From Kosakonia arachidis (GTDB taxonomy: Bacteria; Pseudomonadota; Gammaproteobacteria; Enterobacterales; Enterobacteriaceae), in contig NZ_FPAU01000003.1 of the NCBI RefSeq assembly GCF_900116535.1, positions 250,403 through 314,402 on the forward strand: 64,000 nt of DNA, in the 5' to 3' direction. Shown in pieces: positions 8,960 to 17,574 of the stretch (positions are counted from its first letter, which is position 1; every line of letters starts with the position of its first letter). The notes under the pieces were generated by a model that was not told the origin of the DNA, did no database searches, and saw only the letters and a program-made list of their open reading frames with translations. The translations under genes were made by a program, and so were the position numbers.

Positions 8960-9280
8960 ATGAACGATGCCCAAGAGCGGGCAGAGCAAACGGCAACCCT
9001 TGCCGGGCGCATGTTGACGCAGGTCTATGCGCTGCTGAGCAATCACGGTATTACGCCGAATGCGGTGCAGCAGCAGATGCTGACCTCCCATGTTCGCGCG
9101 ATGGCGCACCGGTCTGTGACCGGCGAACCGCTGCCGGAAGTGGATGCCAGCCTGTTTGATGAAATCTCGCCTGAATCAATGAACCTGGCCCGTGAAGTGG
9201 TGGCGGCGTTTGGCAATCTTCCGGAAGAAGAAGCCTGGCTGCTGTCGGTGCACTTCGAAGTGGCAAAAGAGAACCTATAA
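8960..9280 (+). CDS. Small single-PRD protein, first gene of the operon
   Basis: 106 residues, one helical PTS-regulation-like domain (PRD) and no DNA-binding or RNA-binding part. Two histidines lie in conserved-looking positions (SHVRAMAHRS, residues ~43-52; LLSVHFEVA near the C terminus), as in phosphorylatable PRDs. Start at ATG 8960 is chosen because GGAG lies five bases upstream; an in-frame GTG at 8942 is possible. The gene is 10 bases before the SFCGS gene. Inference: it could sense phosphorylation and tune the regulator or transporter. Function not established. Confidence 0.75.
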   Translation: MNDAQERAEQTATLAGRMLTQVYALLSNHGITPNAVQQQMLTSHVRAMAHRSVTGEPLPEVDASLFDEISPESMNLAREVVAAFGNLPEEEAWLLSVHFEVAKENL

Positions 9281-9290
9281 GGAGCCCAAA

Positions 9291-9653
9291 ATGGAACAAA
9301 TTACCGTAGTGATTGGCGATCGTCTTGGCAAAGGCCAGAAAGTCGCCGCAGGCGTTGAAAAAGCGGGCGGCCGTGCCGTGGTGGTACCGGGCGTAGCGGC
9401 AGATATGAAATTGGGTGATGTGATGAAAGCGGAAAACGCCACTTTCGGCATTTCGTTTTGCGGCAGCGGCGGCGCGGGTGCCATCACCGCACAGAACAAG
9501 CACGGCTATAAAGCCAAATATGGCATGCGCTCTGTGGAAGAAGGCGTTACCGCCATCAATGAAGGCTGCAATGTTTTTGGCTTCGGCTTTATGGACAAAG
9601 AAGAGTTAGGCGAGCGTATGGTGCTGGCCTGGCAGAAAAAATACGGCGCATAA
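9291..9653 (+). CDS. Glycine-rich SFCGS family protein
   Basis: 120-residue soluble protein. The signature SFCGSGGAGA (residues ~51-60) contains its only obvious candidate nucleophile, a cysteine in a glycine loop, after a Rossmann-like start (ITVVIGDRLGKGQKVAAGVE). A conserved C-terminal part reads EGCNVFGFGFMDKEELG. The family is known only as a conserved neighbour of DUF4312, DUF4311 and DUF4310. The cysteine loop recalls the phosphocysteine loop of PTS EIIB proteins; that similarity is my inference. RBS AAGGAGCC precedes ATG 9291; the stop lies two bases before the next start. Confidence 0.85.
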   Translation: MEQITVVIGDRLGKGQKVAAGVEKAGGRAVVVPGVAADMKLGDVMKAENATFGISFCGSGGAGAITAQNKHGYKAKYGMRSVEEGVTAINEGCNVFGFGFMDKEELGERMVLAWQKKYGA

Positions 9654-9655
9654 CC

Positions 9656-9952
9656 ATGAAAGAACAGTTCACCACCACGGTCAGGGTTAAGGGAAAAGGC
9701 GAGGCGAAAGCGCGCGCTTTCGCGGATGCACTGAACCAGGTTCAGGCTGCGGTGATGAAAGCGTCGCAGCATATTTTACTGCGTATCGAGCCACAGGATG
9801 TGCAGGTTGTTCATGCGCAGGAAACGACACGGAAAGAGGCGTTTTTGTTCCTCTTTCTGCGCCGTGTAAGACGTACGTACAGCGTGGAGCTGGACGTGAC
9901 CGTCAACGTGACCGCCATCAATCTCGATAAAGTGGACTTCGTCACGAAATAA
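9656..9952 (+). CDS. DUF4312 family protein
   Basis: 98-residue soluble alpha/beta protein (MKEQFTTTVRVKGKGEAKARAFADALNQVQ...), with two long beta segments at the C-terminal half (TYSVELDVTVNVTAINLDKVDF). It has no catalytic motif I recognise. It sits two bases after the SFCGS gene and 51 bases before the DUF4311 gene, so it is translated with them. Function unknown; constant association with two membrane proteins suggests a cytoplasmic subunit of a transport complex. Confidence 0.82.
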   Translation: MKEQFTTTVRVKGKGEAKARAFADALNQVQAAVMKASQHILLRIEPQDVQVVHAQETTRKEAFLFLFLRRVRRTYSVELDVTVNVTAINLDKVDFVTK

Positions 9953-10003
9953 CTCAACGCGTACCCGGTGAATCACCTCCGCTGGGTAGAAGAGGGCAGA
10001 CTG

Positions 10004-10780
10004 ATGTTCTTAATCATACTAATAAAATCGCTCATCATCGGCGGCCTGGTTGGCTTCGGTGTTGGCGCGGGGGCTGCACGCATGTTTCATGCGCCGACCA
10101 CACAAGGGATGGGCGCATTTCGTACACTTGGGGAACTAAACTCCTGCGAAGGCGATCCAGCATCGCATTTCTCATTCGGCTTAGGCTTCTTCTTTAACGC
10201 CTGGGCCTCGTCCGTTGCGGCAGGTTCTTTCACTCAGGATGTAGACCATCGCATCATTCCGAACTGGGGGGCGGCGGCGTTAATGGTGAAAAACCGTAAC
10301 GTCGGCGAAACCCTGCACGATCCGAAAAAGATGGCGATCGTCTGTGGCCTGATTGGCATGGTGGTCGTCACCTTCCTTAACCTTACGGCTTCATCCGTTC
10401 CGGCGGCCTTGCAGGTCACTGCCGTTAAAGTGTTGGTTCCGGCGGCTAACTTGCTGGTGAACACCGTAATGCCGGTGATCTTCTGGCTGGCAGCCATCGA
10501 CGCAGGCAAAAAATCGGGTTTCTGGGCGACCGTCTTCGGTGGCGCGGCGCAGCTGATTATGGGCAACGCCGTACCCGGCCTGGTTCTGGGTATTCTGATC
10601 GGTAAAGGTGTGGAAGAGAGTGGCTGGAACCGCGTCACCAAAGTGATGATGACGGCCATTGTCGCGCTGTTTGTGCTGAGCGCGTTCTTCCGTGGCTTCG
10701 ATCTGAAAATGATCGAATCTTTCCACCTGAGCGCGCCGAACTGGCTGGCGCTTATCCACAACTCGCTCAGCGGCAAATAA
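10004..10780 (+). CDS. DUF4311 family integral membrane protein
   Basis: 258 residues with about six membrane segments: residues 1-25 (MFLIILIKSLIIGGLVGFGVGAG), then hydrophobic stretches near 110-130, 142-165, 175-200 and 218-238. Between them is a conserved soluble loop, GELNSCEGDPASHFSFGLGFFFNAWASS, and NWGAAALMVKNRN. The start at 10004 is preceded by AGAGGG at seven bases; an in-frame GTG at 9968 would add 12 residues that are not membrane-like. Likely forms the membrane channel with DUF4310, whose gene starts nine bases after this stop. Substrate not known. Confidence 0.84.
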   Translation: MFLIILIKSLIIGGLVGFGVGAGAARMFHAPTTQGMGAFRTLGELNSCEGDPASHFSFGLGFFFNAWASSVAAGSFTQDVDHRIIPNWGAAALMVKNRNVGETLHDPKKMAIVCGLIGMVVVTFLNLTASSVPAALQVTAVKVLVPAANLLVNTVMPVIFWLAAIDAGKKSGFWATVFGGAAQLIMGNAVPGLVLGILIGKGVEESGWNRVTKVMMTAIVALFVLSAFFRGFDLKMIESFHLSAPNWLALIHNSLSGK

Positions 10781-10789
10781 GGAAGCGAA

Positions 10790-11431
10790 ATGGAACAGAA
10801 TAAAGGGTTTTGGTACGCCGACTGGTCGTTCCCGATCTTTGTTGGCCTGCTCTCTTCCGGCGTGTTCGCCGGGACACATATGTACTACCTGTATGGCATC
10901 GGTGCGTTCAACGAAGTGGCATTTGTCTCGATGTTGCGTTCCGGTATGGACACCGGCGTATACGGCGCAGTCGCCGCGTTTGGCGCCAGCTTCCTGTTCG
11001 CCCGCATTATTGAAGGTTCGTTGGTCGGTATTCTTGATATCGGCGGTGCGATCCAGACCGGTGTTGGCCTCGGTGTGCCAGCGCTGTTACTGGGGGCCGG
11101 GATCCTCTTCCCGGTGGAAAACTTTGTCGCCTCGCTGGCAACCGGCCTGGTACTTGGCCTGGCCATTGGTTACCTGATCATACTGGCGCGTAAGTTCACC
11201 ATCAACCAGAGCGATTCCACCTACGGCGCAGATGTGATGATGGGCGCGGGTAACGCCTCCGGCCGCTTCCTCGGGCCGCTGATTATCCTCAGCGCCATGA
11301 CCGCTTCCATTCCTATTGGTATTGGTTCGCTGGTCGGCGCGCTGCTGTTCTACCTTTGGCAGAAACCGATTACCGGCGGCGCGATCCTCGGCGCCATGCT
11401 GCTGGGCTCCATCTTCCCGGTCGCCCTCTGA
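10790..11431 (+). CDS. DUF4310 family integral membrane protein
   Basis: 213 residues, strongly hydrophobic, with about six helices; glycine-rich repeated-looking segments include GVGLGVPALLLGAGILFPVENF and GAGNASGRFLGPLIILSAMTASIPIGIGSLVGALLFYLW. GGAAGCG ribosome site 5' of ATG 10790. It lies directly after DUF4311 and before the amidohydrolase; a weak hairpin follows the stop. It has no recognised transporter signature, so the pair with DUF4311 may be a separate or highly diverged permease family. Confidence 0.84.
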   Translation: MEQNKGFWYADWSFPIFVGLLSSGVFAGTHMYYLYGIGAFNEVAFVSMLRSGMDTGVYGAVAAFGASFLFARIIEGSLVGILDIGGAIQTGVGLGVPALLLGAGILFPVENFVASLATGLVLGLAIGYLIILARKFTINQSDSTYGADVMMGAGNASGRFLGPLIILSAMTASIPIGIGSLVGALLFYLWQKPITGGAILGAMLLGSIFPVAL

Positions 11432-11437
11432 ACCCTG

Positions 11438-11455
11438 CGGGCGCTGAGGCGCCCG
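11438..11455 (+). other. Intercistronic hairpin between transporter and enzyme genes
   Basis: CGGGCGC-TGAG-GCGCCCG stem with only TTATT after it. Probably an RNA stabilising or partial-stop element rather than a full terminator, since the next gene begins 19 bases later. Confidence 0.45.
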
Positions 11456-11473
11456 TTATTACTGGAGATTCGC

Positions 11474-12607
11474 ATGTTTGATTTACTCCTGCGCCGGGCG
11501 CGTCTGGTTGACGATACGCTGACAGATATCGCTATCAAGGCAGGGAAAATCGCCGCGTTGGGTGAGATAAACGGCCCGGCGGTTAAAACGATCGATCTGC
11601 GCGGCGAACACTATGTTAGCGCCGGGTGGATTGATTCCCACGTGCACTGCTACCCGAACTCGCCGATTTACCACGATGAACCCGACAGCGTCGGCATCAA
11701 TACTGGCGTGACGACGGTGATTGACGCGGGCAGTACCGGCGCTGATGATGTCGATGATTTTTATGCCATTACCCGCGAGGCGGCGACCGACGTGTATGCG
11801 CTGCTGAACGTCTCCCGCGTCGGGCTGATTGCTCAGAACGAGCTGGCCAACATGGCGAATATCGACGCGAATGCGGTACATGATGCGATAAAACGCCATC
11901 CGAATTTTATCGTCGGCCTGAAAGCGCGCATGAGCAGCAGCGTGGTCGGTGAAAATGGCATCACGCCGCTGGAACGCGCAAAGGCGATTCAGAAAGCCAA
12001 CGGCGATTTGCCGTTGATGGTGCACATTGGTAATAATCCGCCAAACCTCGATGAAATTGCTGAGCTGCTGACTTCCGGCGACATCATTACCCACTGCTAT
12101 AACGGTAAACCCAACCGCATTCTCGCGCCTGGCGGCGAGTTACGTGCTTCCGTGGCGCGCGCCATTGCGCGTGGCGTGCGTCTTGATGTCGGGCATGGCA
12201 GCGCCAGCTTTAGCTTTGCCGTGGCCAAACAGGCTATCAGCCTCGGCATTCTGCCGCAGACCATCAGTTCTGATATCTACTGCCGCAACCGGATCGACGG
12301 CCCGGTGCGATCGTTGGCAAACGTGATGTCCAAATTCCTCGCCATTGGCCTGTCGCTGCAGCAGGTGATTGCCTGCGTGACCGACCACGCCGCCGCTGGC
12401 CTGCGTCTGAAGCATAAAGGGCGTCTTGCCGTTGGCCTCGACGCCGATCTGACCATTTTTGACCTGCGTCGCCAGTCTGTACTGTTCACCGATGTGGAAA
12501 ACGACAGCCTGCAGGCCGAACAGTTACTCACGCCGCTGGCCGCCATTCGCGCGGGCAAAGGCTATCTGACCGAACAAGGGAGTGCAGAACATGCCTTCGA
12601 TTTATGA
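11474..12607 (+). CDS. Amidohydrolase/deacetylase family metallohydrolase
   Basis: 377 residues of the dihydroorotase-like amidohydrolase superfamily. Metal ligands are visible: HxH in DSHVHCY (residues ~55-57), the probable carboxylated lysine in VGLKARMS (~154), histidines in MVHIGN and THCYN, and Asp in SSDIYCRN. The family is found beside DgaE/DgaF and is expected to remove an N-acyl group from an amino sugar acid before ammonia elimination; the exact substrate is inferred. RBS TGGAG precedes ATG 11474. The 3' end overlaps the next gene by 17 bases, indicating coupled translation. Confidence 0.87.
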   Translation: MFDLLLRRARLVDDTLTDIAIKAGKIAALGEINGPAVKTIDLRGEHYVSAGWIDSHVHCYPNSPIYHDEPDSVGINTGVTTVIDAGSTGADDVDDFYAITREAATDVYALLNVSRVGLIAQNELANMANIDANAVHDAIKRHPNFIVGLKARMSSSVVGENGITPLERAKAIQKANGDLPLMVHIGNNPPNLDEIAELLTSGDIITHCYNGKPNRILAPGGELRASVARAIARGVRLDVGHGSASFSFAVAKQAISLGILPQTISSDIYCRNRIDGPVRSLANVMSKFLAIGLSLQQVIACVTDHAAAGLRLKHKGRLAVGLDADLTIFDLRRQSVLFTDVENDSLQAEQLLTPLAAIRAGKGYLTEQGSAEHAFDL

Positions 12608-13706
12608 AAAGTACAATTTAAAACAGGTGATTAACGCCTCCGGTCGAATGACCGCGCTGGGCGTTTCTACTCCGCGCCCGGAAGTGGTGGAAGCCGTGCT
12701 TGGTGGCATGAACCACTATTTCGAAATGAAAGACCTGGTGAACAAAACCGGCGAATACATTGCGAATCTGCTGGATGTTGAAGCGGCGACCGTTGTCTCC
12801 TGTGCCTCTGCGGGGATTGCACAATCCGTTGCTGCGGTGCTGGTGCGCGACAGCGACTGGCTGCTGGAGAATCTGCATAGCACGGCGATTGAGAGCAACG
12901 AAATCGTGCTGCCGCGCGGTCACAACGTTAACTTCGGCGCACCGGTCGGCACGATGGTGGCGCTCGGCGGCGGGAAAGTGGTGGAAGCGGGCTATGCCAA
13001 CGAATGTTCCGCCGATCAGCTGGCAGCGGCAATTTCGCCGCGTACGGCCGCTATCCTCTACATCAAATCACACCACTGTGTACAAAAAAGCATGCTCAGC
13101 GTGGAGCAGGCGGTGGTGGTAGCGCGCAAGCATAACCTGCCGCTGATTGTCGATGCCGCGGCGGAAGAGGATTTGCAATGCTACTACCGCGCCGGGGCCG
13201 ATTTGGTGATTTACAGCGGCGCGAAGGCCATCGAAGGGCCAACCAGCGGGTTAGTGATCGGCAAAACCCAGTACGTCGAGTGGGTGAAACGCCAGACGGC
13301 AGGTATTGGTCGCGCCATGAAAGTGGGCAAAGAGGGCATTCTTGGCCTGACTTGCGCCATCGAACATTATCTGAGTGCCCGCAAAGAGAGCGGCGCGGAA
13401 ATGGTTGCCAAAATGACGCCATTTATCGATCAGCTCAACACGCTGCAAGGCGTGAGCGCACGCGTGGTATGGGATAGCGCAGGGCGCGACATTGCCCGTA
13501 GCGAAATCAAGTTTGATGAAGTGGTAACTGGCATCGCCACTGGCGAACTGGTCAGCGCGCTGAAACAGGGTGAATACGCCATCTATTTCCGTGGCTACAA
13601 AGCCAATGAAGGCATTATCGAAGCCGATGTGCGCAGCGTAAGCGCTGAGCAACTGGCGATTGTTTATCGCCGCATCGCTGAAGAATTGAAGGAGCAACAC
13701 GTATGA
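12591..13706 (+). CDS. DgaE-family pyridoxal-phosphate-dependent ammonia-lyase
   Basis: 371 residues of the selenocysteine-synthase-like PLP fold. DgaE in Salmonella converts D-glucosaminate-6-phosphate to 2-keto-3-deoxygluconate-6-phosphate plus ammonia. Visible landmarks: QVINASGRMTALGVSTPRPEV at the N terminus, VVSCASAGIAQSVAA, IVDAAAEEDLQ (PLP-ring Asp) and the Schiff-base lysine in YSGAKAIEGP. Start ATG 12591 has GGGAG at eight bases; the upstream GTG at 12582 is rejected. It overlaps the deacetylase upstream and the aldolase downstream. Confidence 0.88.
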   Translation: MPSIYEKYNLKQVINASGRMTALGVSTPRPEVVEAVLGGMNHYFEMKDLVNKTGEYIANLLDVEAATVVSCASAGIAQSVAAVLVRDSDWLLENLHSTAIESNEIVLPRGHNVNFGAPVGTMVALGGGKVVEAGYANECSADQLAAAISPRTAAILYIKSHHCVQKSMLSVEQAVVVARKHNLPLIVDAAAEEDLQCYYRAGADLVIYSGAKAIEGPTSGLVIGKTQYVEWVKRQTAGIGRAMKVGKEGILGLTCAIEHYLSARKESGAEMVAKMTPFIDQLNTLQGVSARVVWDSAGRDIARSEIKFDEVVTGIATGELVSALKQGEYAIYFRGYKANEGIIEADVRSVSAEQLAIVYRRIAEELKEQHV

Positions 13707-14443
13707 AACTGACCCCGAACTTTTACCGCGATCGCGTCTGCCTGAACGTGCTGGCGGGAAGCAAAGAGAATGCCAGCGCTATCTATGAAGCGGCTGAAGG
13801 CCATGTTCTGGTCGGCGTGCTATCCAAAAATTATCCGGATGTGGCGTCGGCGGTGGCGGATATGCGTGACTACGCGGCGCGTATCGATAACGCGCTCTCT
13901 GTCGGCCTCGGTGCGGGCGATCCGAACCAGTCGGCGATGGTCAGCGCCATCTCCCGCGACGTGCAGCCGCAGCACGTTAACCAGGTGTTTACCGGTGTGG
14001 CAACCAGCCGCGCGCTGCTTGGGCAGAATGAAACGGTGGTTAACGGTCTGGTCTCGCCGACCGGCACACCGGGGTTGGTGAAAATCTCCACCGGGCCGCT
14101 CAGCAGCCAGGCGGCCGACGGTATTGTGCCGGTGGAAACTGCTATTGCACTGCTGAAAGATATGGGCGGTAGCTCGATTAAATATTTCCCGATGGGCGGG
14201 CTGAAGTGCCGTGATGAGTTCCAGTCGGTTGCCGATGCCTGTGCGCGACATAACTTCTGGCTGGAGCCGACGGGGGGTATCGATCTGGAGAACTACAGCG
14301 AAATCCTGCGCATCGCGCTGGAGGCGGGTGTCAGCAAAATTATCCCGCATATCTACAGTTCGATTATCGATAAAGCCAGTGGTGATACCCGCCCGGCCGA
14401 TGTACGCCAGTTACTGGCTATGACCAAAGCGTTAGTGAAGTAA
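13703..14443 (+). CDS. DgaF-type 2-dehydro-3-deoxy-phosphogluconate aldolase
   Basis: 246 residues. Expected to cleave 2-keto-3-deoxygluconate-6-phosphate to pyruvate and glyceraldehyde-3-phosphate, finishing the amino-sugar-acid pathway. TIM-barrel landmarks are SVGLGAGDPNQ, TGTPGLVKISTGP (Schiff-base Lys region), IKYFPMGGLK and WLEPTGGIDLENY. The start overlaps the DgaE stop in ATGA. No sugar-acid kinase is present in the operon although this enzyme family needs a phosphorylated substrate, which points to phosphorylation during uptake. Confidence 0.88.
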   Translation: MKLTPNFYRDRVCLNVLAGSKENASAIYEAAEGHVLVGVLSKNYPDVASAVADMRDYAARIDNALSVGLGAGDPNQSAMVSAISRDVQPQHVNQVFTGVATSRALLGQNETVVNGLVSPTGTPGLVKISTGPLSSQAADGIVPVETAIALLKDMGGSSIKYFPMGGLKCRDEFQSVADACARHNFWLEPTGGIDLENYSEILRIALEAGVSKIIPHIYSSIIDKASGDTRPADVRQLLAMTKALVK

Positions 14444-14451
14444 ATGTCCGG

Positions 14452-14474
14452 CCCTCCCACAATCTGTGGGAGGG
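14452..14474 (+). other. Intercistronic hairpin before the lactonase gene
   Basis: CCCTCCCAC-AATCT-GTGGGAGGG, nine perfect pairs, no T run. It lies between the cytoplasmic enzyme genes and the secreted lactonase gene, so it probably protects or limits the mRNA at this junction. Confidence 0.55.
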
Positions 14475-14503
14475 AAACGCACACGATAGATAAAGGAGCC
14501 ACC

Positions 14504-15649
14504 ATGTACATTGCCCGTCATCTTCTTGCTGCTTCACTCTCCCTGCTGGCGACCAGCGTCATTGCCCAGACCCAGTACGCCTGGCTGGGGACCTACAATC
14601 CCAACGGCGAAGGCGTTTACCGCTTTACCGTTGACCCGCAATCTGGCGCGCTGAGCAACAAAACGCTGGTCAGCACCTTGCCGAATGCGGCGCAGCTTAC
14701 CGTTTCGCAGGATGGCAAAACGTTATATGTCGCCAGCGAAGTAGAAAAGGGCGTGGTGCAGGCGCTGCGTATTGACGATAAGGGCGCATTGCAGGAACTG
14801 AACCAGGTGTCATCCGGGGGTGCCGGGCCGGTTTATCTGTCGCTGACGCCGAATGGGCGCAATCTACTGGTGGCGAATTATGTCAGTGGCTCGATTGCCG
14901 TACTGCCGGTAAAAGCCGACGGTAGCCTCGGCGAGGCGGTGGACAACCACCAGGATCAGGGCGAACCTGGCGCAGCCAAACCCGCAGCAGCCGTGGAAGG
15001 AAGCTTTGCCATCAGCGATCATAATGGCCCGCATGCACATATGATTGCCGCCGATCCGCAGGGGAAATTTGTCTTCTCGACCGATCTGGGACTGGATCGT
15101 ATTTACCAGTACCGCCTGGAGGCGCAAAGTGGCAAGTTAACGCCTAACGAGCCACCTTTTATCAACGCGTCTTCAAAAGGTGCCGGACCGCGTCACTTTG
15201 TCTTTTCGCCAAAAGGCGATGGGCTGTGGTTGATCAATGAAGAGGCCTCAACATTGACGTATTACTCGCTGGACAGCAAAACCGGAACGCTGAAAGAGGG
15301 TAAAACCACTTCGGCGCTGCCAGCAGCGTACAAAGGCACCAGCTTTGCCGCCGGTCTGGTACTCAGTCGGGATGGTAAACAACTGTATGTGGCTAACCGT
15401 CTGCATAACAGCGTGGCGCACTTTAGCGTGCAGCCGGATGGCACGCTGGCGCATCAGGATGATGTCTGGACGCGCGGCGACTATCCGCGATCGCTGACGC
15501 TGGATAAACAGGGGCGCTGGCTGTACGTCATGAATCAACGCAGCGACAATATCACCCGTTTTCGCGTTGCGAAGGACGGTAAGCTAAGTTTTGTGCCGGA
15601 TTACACGCCGGTGGGTAGCCCATCTCAGATGGTCATTTCCTCTTACTAA
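14504..15649 (+). CDS. Secreted lactonase family protein (seven-bladed propeller, Pgl-like)
   Basis: 381 residues with a signal peptide (MYIARHLLAASLSLLATSVIAQ), so it acts in the periplasm. The rest is the repeated propeller pattern of 6-phosphogluconolactonase-like lactonases: blades carry motifs such as GPVYLSLTPNGRNLLVANYVSGS, HAHMIAADPQGKFVFSTDLG and GPRHFVFSPKGDGLWLINE. It presumably opens a sugar lactone to the acid before uptake; being exported, it is not the pentose-pathway enzyme. Start 14504 follows AAAGGAG; 20 upstream in-frame codons would spoil the signal peptide. Confidence 0.85.
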   Translation: MYIARHLLAASLSLLATSVIAQTQYAWLGTYNPNGEGVYRFTVDPQSGALSNKTLVSTLPNAAQLTVSQDGKTLYVASEVEKGVVQALRIDDKGALQELNQVSSGGAGPVYLSLTPNGRNLLVANYVSGSIAVLPVKADGSLGEAVDNHQDQGEPGAAKPAAAVEGSFAISDHNGPHAHMIAADPQGKFVFSTDLGLDRIYQYRLEAQSGKLTPNEPPFINASSKGAGPRHFVFSPKGDGLWLINEEASTLTYYSLDSKTGTLKEGKTTSALPAAYKGTSFAAGLVLSRDGKQLYVANRLHNSVAHFSVQPDGTLAHQDDVWTRGDYPRSLTLDKQGRWLYVMNQRSDNITRFRVAKDGKLSFVPDYTPVGSPSQMVISSY

Positions 15650-15663
15650 GCCAGGAGACTGAT

Positions 15664-17574
15664 GTGCGATTCCCGAACCAACGTTTAGCGCAGTTGTTTA
15701 TGATGTTGCAAAACGAGACACTGCCGCAGGATGAACTGGCACAAAGGCTGTCGGTCTCCACGCGTACCGTTCGGGCCGATATCACCGCTTTAAATGCGCT
15801 GCTGGAGCACCACGGCGCACAGTTTATTTTGACGCGCGGTAGCGGTTATCAACTGAAGATTGATGACGCTACGCGTTACCAGACACTACAGGCTGCCCGC
15901 CCGCGCGCGCTGCGTATTCCCCGCAGCGGGCCGGAGCGCGTGCATTATCTGGTGGTGCGGTTTCTGACCTCGGCCTTTTCCCTGAAGCTGGAAGATCTGG
16001 CGGATGAGTGGTTTGTCAGCCGCGCCACGTTGCAAAACGACATGACTGAAGTGCGCGAGTGGTTTTCCCGTTATCGTCTGACTCTGGAAACTCGTCCGCG
16101 CCACGGCATGAAGCTGTTTGGTAGCGAGATGGCGTTGCGCGCCTGTCTGACGGATCTGCTATTTGAGCTGGCGCAGCAAAACGCGCACAACCCGCTGATC
16201 ACCGAAGAGGCGCTCAACCCTGGTGTGCCGGAAGCGCTGGCCGCCATTCTGCATGACTGCTTTAGCCGCTATCACATTCGCCTGACGGATGAGGGCGATC
16301 TGTTTATCCGCCTCTACTGTGCAGTAGCGGTGCGGCGTATCAGCGAAGGGTATCCGCTATCGGAATTTACCGCCGAAGATGGTGATGAGAACATCCGTGA
16401 CGCTGCGCGCGCCATCTCTGCTGCACTACAGCAACTTGCGGGAAAACCACTGGCGGCATCGGAAGAACACTGGCTGAGAGTACATATTGCCGGGCGACGT
16501 GTGCAGGAGATTGCGCCGAGCGCCATCAGTGCCGACGATGATGAAACGCTGGTGAACTACATTCTCGGCTATATCAACACGCACTATAACTACAACCTGC
16601 AGAATGACGCGCAGCTGCATGCAGATTTACTGACGCATATTAAAACCATGATCACCCGCGTGCGTTACCAGATCATGATCCCTAATCCGTTGCTGGATAA
16701 CATTAAACAGCATTACCCGATGGCCTGGGATATGACGCTGGCGGCGGTGTCTAGTTGGGGTAAATACACGCCGTATGTCATCAGCGAAAACGAAATTGGC
16801 TTCCTCGTGCTGCATATTGGTGTAGGGCTTGAGCGCCACTACAACATTGGTTACCAGCGCCAGCCGCGCGTGCTGCTGGTATGCGATGCCGGGAATGCGA
16901 TGGTGCGGATGATTGAAGCGGTACTGGCGCGTAAGTATCCGCAAATTGTTATCTCCCGCACCGTGACACTGCGCGATTATGAGCAGTGCGACGGCATTGC
17001 GGAAGATTTTGTTATTTCCACTGCGCGGATCAGCGAGAAAGACAAACCGATCGTCACCATCGCACCTTTCCCCAGTGATTACCAACTGGAGCAGATTGGC
17101 AAACTGGTGCTGGTGGACAGGACGCGTCCATGGATGCTGGAAAAGTATTTTGATGCTGCGCATTTCCGCATTATTGACGGCGCGATGGATCAACAGACGC
17201 TGTTTAAAACGCTTTGCGATCAACTTCAGGATGAAGGCTTTGTCGGCGCAGAGTTTTTTGATTCTGTGGTGGAGCGTGAAGCGATTGTCAGCACCATGCT
17301 CGGCGAAGGCATCGCATTGCCGCATGCACTGGGGTTGCTGGCGAAAAAAACCGTTGTCTACACCGTGCTCGCGCCAAAAGGCATCCAGTGGGGCGAGGAG
17401 GTCGCACATGTCATCTTCCTGCTGGCGATCAGTAAAAGCGAGTATGAAGAGGCGATGGCGATCTACGATATTTTTGTCACCTTCCTGCGCGATCGCGCAG
17501 CATCAAGGCTTTGCGATTGCGTCAATTTCGACGCCTTCCGAAGCGTGGCGATGGAGTGCGTCAGCCGGTTTTGA
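15664..17574 (+). CDS. PRD-containing transcriptional activator with PTS EIIB and EIIA domains
   Basis: 636 residues. Domain order: N-terminal HTH (QDELAQRLSVSTRTVRADI, residues 19-40) and a second winged helix, two PRDs (about 190-400), an EIIB(Gat)-like domain with Cys407 in LLVCDAGNAM, and an EIIA(Mtl)-like domain with His554 in ALPHAL. This is the MtlR/LicR-type layout whose activity is set by PTS phosphorylation. It starts with GTG 15664 after AGGAGA; the nearby ATG at 15662 is out of frame. It ends the operon, so it likely activates its own genes via the palindrome at 8854-8873 (inference). Confidence 0.9.
   Translation: MRFPNQRLAQLFMMLQNETLPQDELAQRLSVSTRTVRADITALNALLEHHGAQFILTRGSGYQLKIDDATRYQTLQAARPRALRIPRSGPERVHYLVVRFLTSAFSLKLEDLADEWFVSRATLQNDMTEVREWFSRYRLTLETRPRHGMKLFGSEMALRACLTDLLFELAQQNAHNPLITEEALNPGVPEALAAILHDCFSRYHIRLTDEGDLFIRLYCAVAVRRISEGYPLSEFTAEDGDENIRDAARAISAALQQLAGKPLAASEEHWLRVHIAGRRVQEIAPSAISADDDETLVNYILGYINTHYNYNLQNDAQLHADLLTHIKTMITRVRYQIMIPNPLLDNIKQHYPMAWDMTLAAVSSWGKYTPYVISENEIGFLVLHIGVGLERHYNIGYQRQPRVLLVCDAGNAMVRMIEAVLARKYPQIVISRTVTLRDYEQCDGIAEDFVISTARISEKDKPIVTIAPFPSDYQLEQIGKLVLVDRTRPWMLEKYFDAAHFRIIDGAMDQQTLFKTLCDQLQDEGFVGAEFFDSVVEREAIVSTMLGEGIALPHALGLLAKKTVVYTVLAPKGIQWGEEVAHVIFLLAISKSEYEEAMAIYDIFVTFLRDRAASRLCDCVNFDAFRSVAMECVSRF

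Follow-up and report, generated by a model that had tools for sequence, protein, structure and literature searches.

A conserved gene cassette of Kosakonia arachidis may encode a phosphotransferase-coupled uptake system for N-acylated amino-sugar acids

The 64,000-nucleotide stretch of the Kosakonia arachidis genome analyzed here (hereafter the window) carries a compact operon at positions 8960-17574, whose genes are tightly packed, co-directional, and all on the plus strand. It opens with a five-gene head, encoding a stand-alone EF_0829-family PRD protein (PRD829) and the SFCGS, DUF4312, DUF4311, and DUF4310 proteins, which we tentatively interpret as an uptake system run on the phosphoenolpyruvate (PEP) phosphotransferase chain. 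An N-acylated amino-sugar acid (e.g., N-acetyl-D-glucosaminate) is quite likely the compound transported by the cassette, and uptake coupled to the phosphotransferase system (PTS), probably with phosphorylation of the acid, is the explanation that we provisionally prefer. DUF4311 and DUF4310 would form the membrane permease, enzyme I (EI) and HPr would phosphorylate PRD829 at a PRD histidine, and the phosphate would then be passed to the incoming acid, possibly via the Cys-containing loop of SFCGS, which is RpiB-like. An EF_0837-type enzyme would deacetylate the 6-phospho acid, a DgaE-family lyase would remove ammonia to give 2-keto-3-deoxy-6-phosphogluconate (KDPG), DgaF would split KDPG into pyruvate and glyceraldehyde-3-phosphate, and a regulator would read the phosphorylation state. 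Directly observed are the genes present, their conservation, the families to which they belong, the kinship of SFCGS with RpiB/LacB, and an HPr-EI gene adjoining the Bartonella cassettes; we infer that the head acts in transport, which substrate it carries, and each of the phosphoryl transfers in this scheme.

The head comprises the genes for PRD829 (8960..9280; TIGR03582, 141 bits against a cut-off of 69), the SFCGS protein (9291..9653; PF14272, E 9e-58; TIGR03577), which has Cys57 in a glycine loop, the soluble DUF4312 protein (9656..9952; PF14189, TIGR03578), and the two proposed permease subunits, namely the membrane proteins DUF4311 (10004..10780; PF14188, TIGR03580) and DUF4310 (10790..11431; PF14187, TIGR03579). 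It is followed by genes for an EF_0837-family amidohydrolase/deacetylase (11474..12607; TIGR03583, 564 bits), a DgaE-family pyridoxal phosphate-dependent ammonia-lyase (12594..13706; TIGR01437, 606 bits), and a DgaF-type KDPG aldolase (13703..14443; NF047796, 387 bits against a cut-off of 300; TIGR03581; PF07071). Relatives in the PDB include 8wzy (E 5e-203) and 2ics for the deacetylase and 3m0z (E 1e-143) for DgaF. All seven NCBIfam models TIGR03577-TIGR03583 score over their cut-offs, identifying this as the EF_0829-EF_0839 cassette, with which the window shares the PRD, SFCGS, DUF4312, DUF4311, DUF4310, deacetylase, and aldolase proteins. NCBIfam names this set as conserved proteins without an assigned function, and the openly licensed literature yielded no functional study of SFCGS, DUF4310-4312, or the yhf operon discussed below among the matches listed. 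What is new beyond these models is the kinship of SFCGS with RpiB/LacB, the parallel with the yhf operon, and an HPr-EI partner.

The initial annotation, made for 8960-14443, had named the SFCGS, DUF4312, DUF4311, DUF4310, deacetylase, DgaE, DgaF, and regulator genes, all of which we recovered, co-directional and closely packed, but it passed over the first gene, that of the PRD protein at 8960-9280. Its four uncharacterized genes (five with the PRD gene) do occupy the place expected for the transporter in a Dga-type pathway. The PRD/EIIB/EIIA regulator that it described has PRD, EIIB-like, and EIIA domains together with a Mga-type helix-turn-helix (15664..17574; PF05043, PF00874, PF00359), but lies outside that interval, behind a gene for a lactonase (14504..15649; PF10282), a 7-bladed beta-propeller protein with an apparent N-terminal signal that may open an aldonolactone ahead of uptake.

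The cassette is not a chance association, because nine genes (the PRD gene, SFCGS, DUF4312, DUF4311, DUF4310, deacetylase, dgaE, dgaF, and regulator) are kept in each of 80 Enterobacterales loci, the top-ranking ones among at least 499 related loci in genome contigs; the lactonase gene is optional (46/80 loci). In support of an uptake system, a constant head of two membrane and three soluble proteins precedes the catabolic genes in all 80. The distribution of the cassette is patchy: SFCGS was found in 7/299 genomes of the phylum, all in the family of the host, and in 1/369 genomes of the class, which is the host itself. DUF4311 occurs in 6 of 72,556 plasmid records (two from Klebsiella, two from Bartonella, and one each from Aeromonas and Enterococcus), these records being our only source for Firmicutes and Alphaproteobacteria, and no relatives were found in viral contigs. 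Two of the plasmid records, of 748 kb (E. faecalis) and 550 kb (K. pneumoniae), look like mislabelled chromosome pieces, carrying housekeeping genes (murF; fbp, mpl, and nrdD). In A. caviae KAM479, about 39 first codons of DUF4310 are fused in frame to the second half of dgaF (L011:10729-11268) and the deacetylase and dgaE genes are gone, through either a deletion or an assembly fault.

Several features connect the cassette with the phosphotransferase chain. Both PRD histidines of PRD829, H44 and H98, are kept in 92/92 aligned sequences (88 from Enterobacterales, the rest from Enterococcus, two Bartonella, and Aeromonas); the protein itself stays under the cut-off of the PRD model PF00874 (20.4 versus 23 bits), which its E. 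faecalis relative passes at 34.9 bits. In the regulator, H325, H384, and C407 are kept in 85/85 loci and the EIIA histidine His554 in 84/85, the exception being E. faecalis, where the EIIA domain is absent. On plasmids of about 55 kb from Bartonella sp. HY406 and HY761, the genes from PRD829 through dgaF are followed by the regulator gene and, directly behind it, by a gene for an HPr-EI fusion protein (L009:8047-10062 and L010:15405-17420), which passes both the HPr (75 bits, cut-off 48) and the EI (511 bits, cut-off 342) models. EI was encountered in no other locus among the 85, and a cellobiose-type enzyme IIC lies within the stretch covered only in the E. faecalis locus (L008) and in L063. 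The HY406 plasmid has no enzyme II (EII) and no kinase annotated in its incomplete gene table; for HY761, 21.6 kb of the plasmid was covered, and the Bartonella comparisons refer to plasmids. The nearest plasmid relatives of the fusion, at 54-55%, come from Caballeronia and Paraburkholderia, and in the annotated case examined, from Caballeronia (55% identity), the relative forms part of a longer protein whose gene neighbours one for a PTS IIBC. Type VI secretion genes are present on both Bartonella plasmids as well, as is an inverted duplication of genes for replication and partition. That a cassette should move together with an EI and HPr of its own is the strongest individual hint that phosphate from PEP is important to it, and together with the PRD histidines it supports the link to EI/HPr suggested in the initial annotation.

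Support also comes by analogy from Salmonella, in which the PTS DgaABCD makes D-glucosaminate-6-phosphate for DgaE and DgaF (PMC9529869); the homologous step there is thus served by a phosphorylating transporter, which may speak for a similar function of the head. The window shares the DgaE-family lyase and the DgaF aldolase with Salmonella DgaABCDEF, but has the five-gene head in place of the mannose-type PTS, an added deacetylase, and a lyase that falls below the equivalog cut-off. Phosphate was docked near Arg301, 332, and 346 of Salmonella DgaE in that study (PMC9529869), and R302, R333, and R347 of the window lyase align on these residues. The three arginines are found in 85/85 cassette lyases, including those of Enterococcus and Bartonella. 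The equivalent of His163 is likewise kept in 85/85 and that of His162 in 83/85, being absent from the two Bartonella enzymes, and Arg226, at which the carboxylate was docked, is a Lys in the window lyase. For E. faecalis EF0839 (DgaF), transposon sequencing is reported to hint at a role in fitness, and the protein may belong to amino-sugar metabolism (PMC7701990).

Where phosphate could enter the pathway is central to the choice between explanations, and it must be added before the DgaF step because DgaF passes the cut-off of the KDPG-aldolase model. A kinase gene inside the operon is precluded by the gene gaps, which are too small in the 80 Enterobacterales loci: the largest gap from PRD829 to dgaF is 152 bases, and dgaF and the regulator gene are 22-396 bases apart in the 34 loci without a lactonase gene. 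This statement rests on gene spacing. The remark in the initial annotation that there is no kinase is therefore correct as far as the operon goes; elsewhere, the host genome encodes kdgK (NF052444, 526 bits against a cut-off of 400). In the E. faecalis operon (L008:13548-20263), a sugar kinase gene lies behind dgaF; its best models are 2-keto-3-deoxygluconate (KDG) kinase types, none over its cut-off, and its product aligns with that of the host kdgK at E 4e-11. As a tblastn query, this kinase matched only its own locus among the 85. A true LacE-type PTS IIC (393 bits, cut-off 236) is encoded in E. faecalis between DUF4310 and the deacetylase, as part of an extra module that also includes a small protein and a MupG-family protein; in the same record, the dgaF coding sequence is broken up between two reading frames.

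These observations count in part against our preferred explanation. With kdgK in the host and a kinase and a LacE-type IIC in E. faecalis, phosphate could come from elsewhere, and the IIC could do the phosphorylating in E. faecalis. The window lyase reaches 381 bits with NF047797, the model specific for the 6-phosphate, against a cut-off of 600, and the E. faecalis (370 bits) and Bartonella (359 bits) enzymes also score under it. The arginine cluster is suggestive only, since it derives from a docking model and the same three arginines are present in the relative 8t7j, whose function is unknown. EI and HPr could serve the regulator alone. The conservation counts are not independent, given the Enterobacterales origin of most of the 92 sequences. 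Homology to EIIA, EIIB, and EIIC all went unfound in the profile tests described below, and the Cys of SFCGS, which corresponds to the loop Cys of RpiB/LacB, could be there for catalysis or for binding a sugar phosphate, neither of which calls for phosphoryl transfer.

The strongest competing explanation, which we regard as a serious possibility, short of an even chance but barely less probable than the preferred one, is that the cassette encodes a PTS-regulated but non-phosphorylating permease. DUF4310 and DUF4311 would bring in the acid without modifying it, and the PRD proteins would do no more than couple expression or activity to EI/HPr. The deacetylase and the lyase would convert free acids to KDG, and KdgK would phosphorylate KDG before DgaF. 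PRD domains are normally regulatory, which suits this explanation, as do the kdgK gene of the host, the KDG-kinase-like gene just behind E. faecalis dgaF, the distance of the lyase from the 6-phosphate-specific cut-off, and the lack of detected EII homology. However, neither a kinase nor space for one is present in any of the 80 Enterobacterales cassettes, and the HY406 plasmid brings HPr-EI with no kinase annotated (although the Bartonella chromosome may hold kdgK). The arginines near the docked phosphate are also kept in the E. faecalis lyase.

The relationships of SFCGS bear both on PTS-coupled, phosphorylating uptake and on a further alternative. In Pfam and NCBIfam scans, the window protein gave weak matches to RpiB/LacAB and DUF2620 (YhfU) models (E 0.03-0.06), under the gathering cut-off of PF02502 (13.8 versus 24.7 bits). 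A phmmer search against PDB sequences returned no match, and a four-sequence SFCGS profile found the RpiB structure 2vvr best (E 0.3), with a nitrogenase at E 1.5. When SFCGS was compared with 67 profiles, RpiB ranked first (36.8%, E 3.6e-4) and YhfU second (8.0%, E 4.3e-3), followed by the ascorbate EIIA UlaC (3.0% over 21 columns), AgaB (2.4%), and background; once six LacA, LacB, and RpiB sequences were added, the hhalign match to RpiB/LacAB rose to 86.5% (E 4.6e-6). In a reverse scan of seven RpiB/LacAB proteins, four listed the SFCGS model, all under its cut-off (L. lactis LacB, E 4.8e-4; E. faecium LacB, 1.8e-3; L. paracasei RpiB, 0.011; a Klebsiella relative, 0.13), and both LacA proteins and one RpiB gave no match to it. 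Cys57, kept in 92/92 sequences, aligns in the profile alignment on the Cys of the CG[ST]G/CNTG loop of RpiB/LacB, and the Cys of the CG[TS]G loop is what we take to be the catalytic base of RpiB. Judged by these profile comparisons, SFCGS is related to RpiB/LacB and does not descend from an EIIB; as an EIIB, its best score was that with AgaB. A match of 70.7% was obtained between the ascorbate/Sgc-type EIIB profile and RpiB/LacAB, but it covers the first 36-39 positions only and does not place the N-terminal EIIB Cys on the Cys of RpiB and SFCGS. The glycine-loop Cys that the initial annotation put forward as a candidate phosphoryl carrier is thus invariant, but does not descend from the EIIB phospho-cysteine.

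SFCGS and YhfU might instead be RpiB/LacAB-like sugar-phosphate isomerases or sensors acting on a pathway intermediate, with the membrane proteins forming an ordinary permease. Both proteins have RpiB as their first match and their Cys in the same loop, SFCGS improves markedly once LacAB is included, and LacB returns the SFCGS model in reverse. We nevertheless consider this explanation unlikely, as no isomerase is required in a Dga-type route, SFCGS ends about 25-30 residues short of RpiB at the C-terminus and scores under the Pfam cut-off for the RpiB/LacA/LacB isomerases, and, unlike those of the isomerases, its gene sits among membrane-protein genes. Moreover, such a gene stays with PRD and membrane genes in two operon types despite their differing enzymes.

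The second operon type is the E. coli yhf operon (yhfSTU-php-yhfWXYZ), of unknown function, which has a stand-alone PRD protein, an RpiB-like Cys protein, and a membrane protein as in the window cassette. YhfY, the PRD protein, matches PRD829 at 93.4% in hhalign, and YhfU (DUF2620) finds RpiB first of 67 profiles at 15.1%, or 48.8% with wider sets. The trio of a PRD protein, YhfU, and the membrane protein YhfT is present in 8/8 yhf loci, with YhfU and YhfT adjacent; these loci (L093 and L166-L172; E. coli, Cetobacterium, Vibrio halioticoli, and five others) were picked for encoding YhfU. The gene order in Cetobacterium is PRD, DUF2620, YhfT. The loop Cys of YhfU and the first PRD histidine are kept in all eight, but the second is not; YhfY thus has one of the two PRD histidines that PRD829 retains. 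The operons differ further in that YhfT shows no relationship to DUF4310/4311 (tried as halves of YhfT, these gave no profile match), the yhf enzymes are not those of the window, and DUF4312 was not seen in annotated yhf operons. As the PRD protein and the RpiB-like Cys protein are common to two otherwise different pathways, they suggest a shared device for transport or control and not enzymes of the pathways. One could go further and place EF_0829-0833 and yhfY-yhfU-yhfT in one unrecognized, PEP-driven class of group translocators with no EII homolog, in which the PRD protein would replace EIIA and the RpiB/LacB-derived Cys protein EIIB; we consider this broader idea rather doubtful.

The membrane proteins gave no indication of descent from a known PTS. 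By a plain hydropathy scan, DUF4311 has five hydrophobic segments and DUF4310 has six; the invariant charged residues of DUF4311 include five His, and the invariant residues of DUF4310 include H30, E42, E75, D83, and D148. In DUF4312, no His or Cys is kept at 97% or more in the 92 sequences. In hhalign, DUF4311 (at most 1.3%) and DUF4310 (at most 0.9%), with profiles of 14 non-redundant sequences each, matched every profile, all EII included, no better than unrelated proteins did; the EII set comprised mannose IIC/IID, galactitol/ascorbate, glucitol, and cellobiose profiles, some of 1-4 sequences. Assignments of DUF4310/4311 as mannose IIC/IID, galactitol/ascorbate IIC, glucitol, or cellobiose IIC were accordingly rejected, and a brief resemblance between DUF4310 and a motif of mannose EIIC failed the profile test. 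DUF4311 has a weak match to DUF2232 (E 0.05-0.08), and an EIIA domain with its His is found in the regulator alone, that of E. faecalis excepted. Thus, the profile-profile comparison proposed in the initial annotation gave no mannose, galactitol, or ascorbate EII match, and its "very diverged PTS" is not supported in terms of homology, as DUF4311 and DUF4310 match no EII profile and SFCGS groups with RpiB/LacB. That SFCGS is an EIIB and DUF4310/4311 an EIIC/EIID pair of a very diverged mannose, galactitol, or ascorbate family is therefore highly improbable, the operon position and the combination of two membrane and two soluble proteins typical of mannose-type systems being outweighed by the negligible hhalign scores (several EII profiles being shallow) and the placement of SFCGS. 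An undetected fold kinship of DUF4310/4311 to EIIs is possible, and the new group-translocation system envisaged in the initial annotation is likewise possible: by membership the cassette lies outside every EII family tested, but it may work like an EII in function.

To our knowledge, the known phosphotransferase transporters belong to a small number of EII families. If PTS-coupled, phosphorylating uptake is the correct explanation, a cassette tied to EI/HPr without those parts would add a new transporter family and would provide a function for several uncharacterized protein families present in Klebsiella, Enterobacter, Citrobacter, Kosakonia, Aeromonas, and Enterococcus. It would also suggest a role for the uncharacterized yhf operon of E. 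coli.

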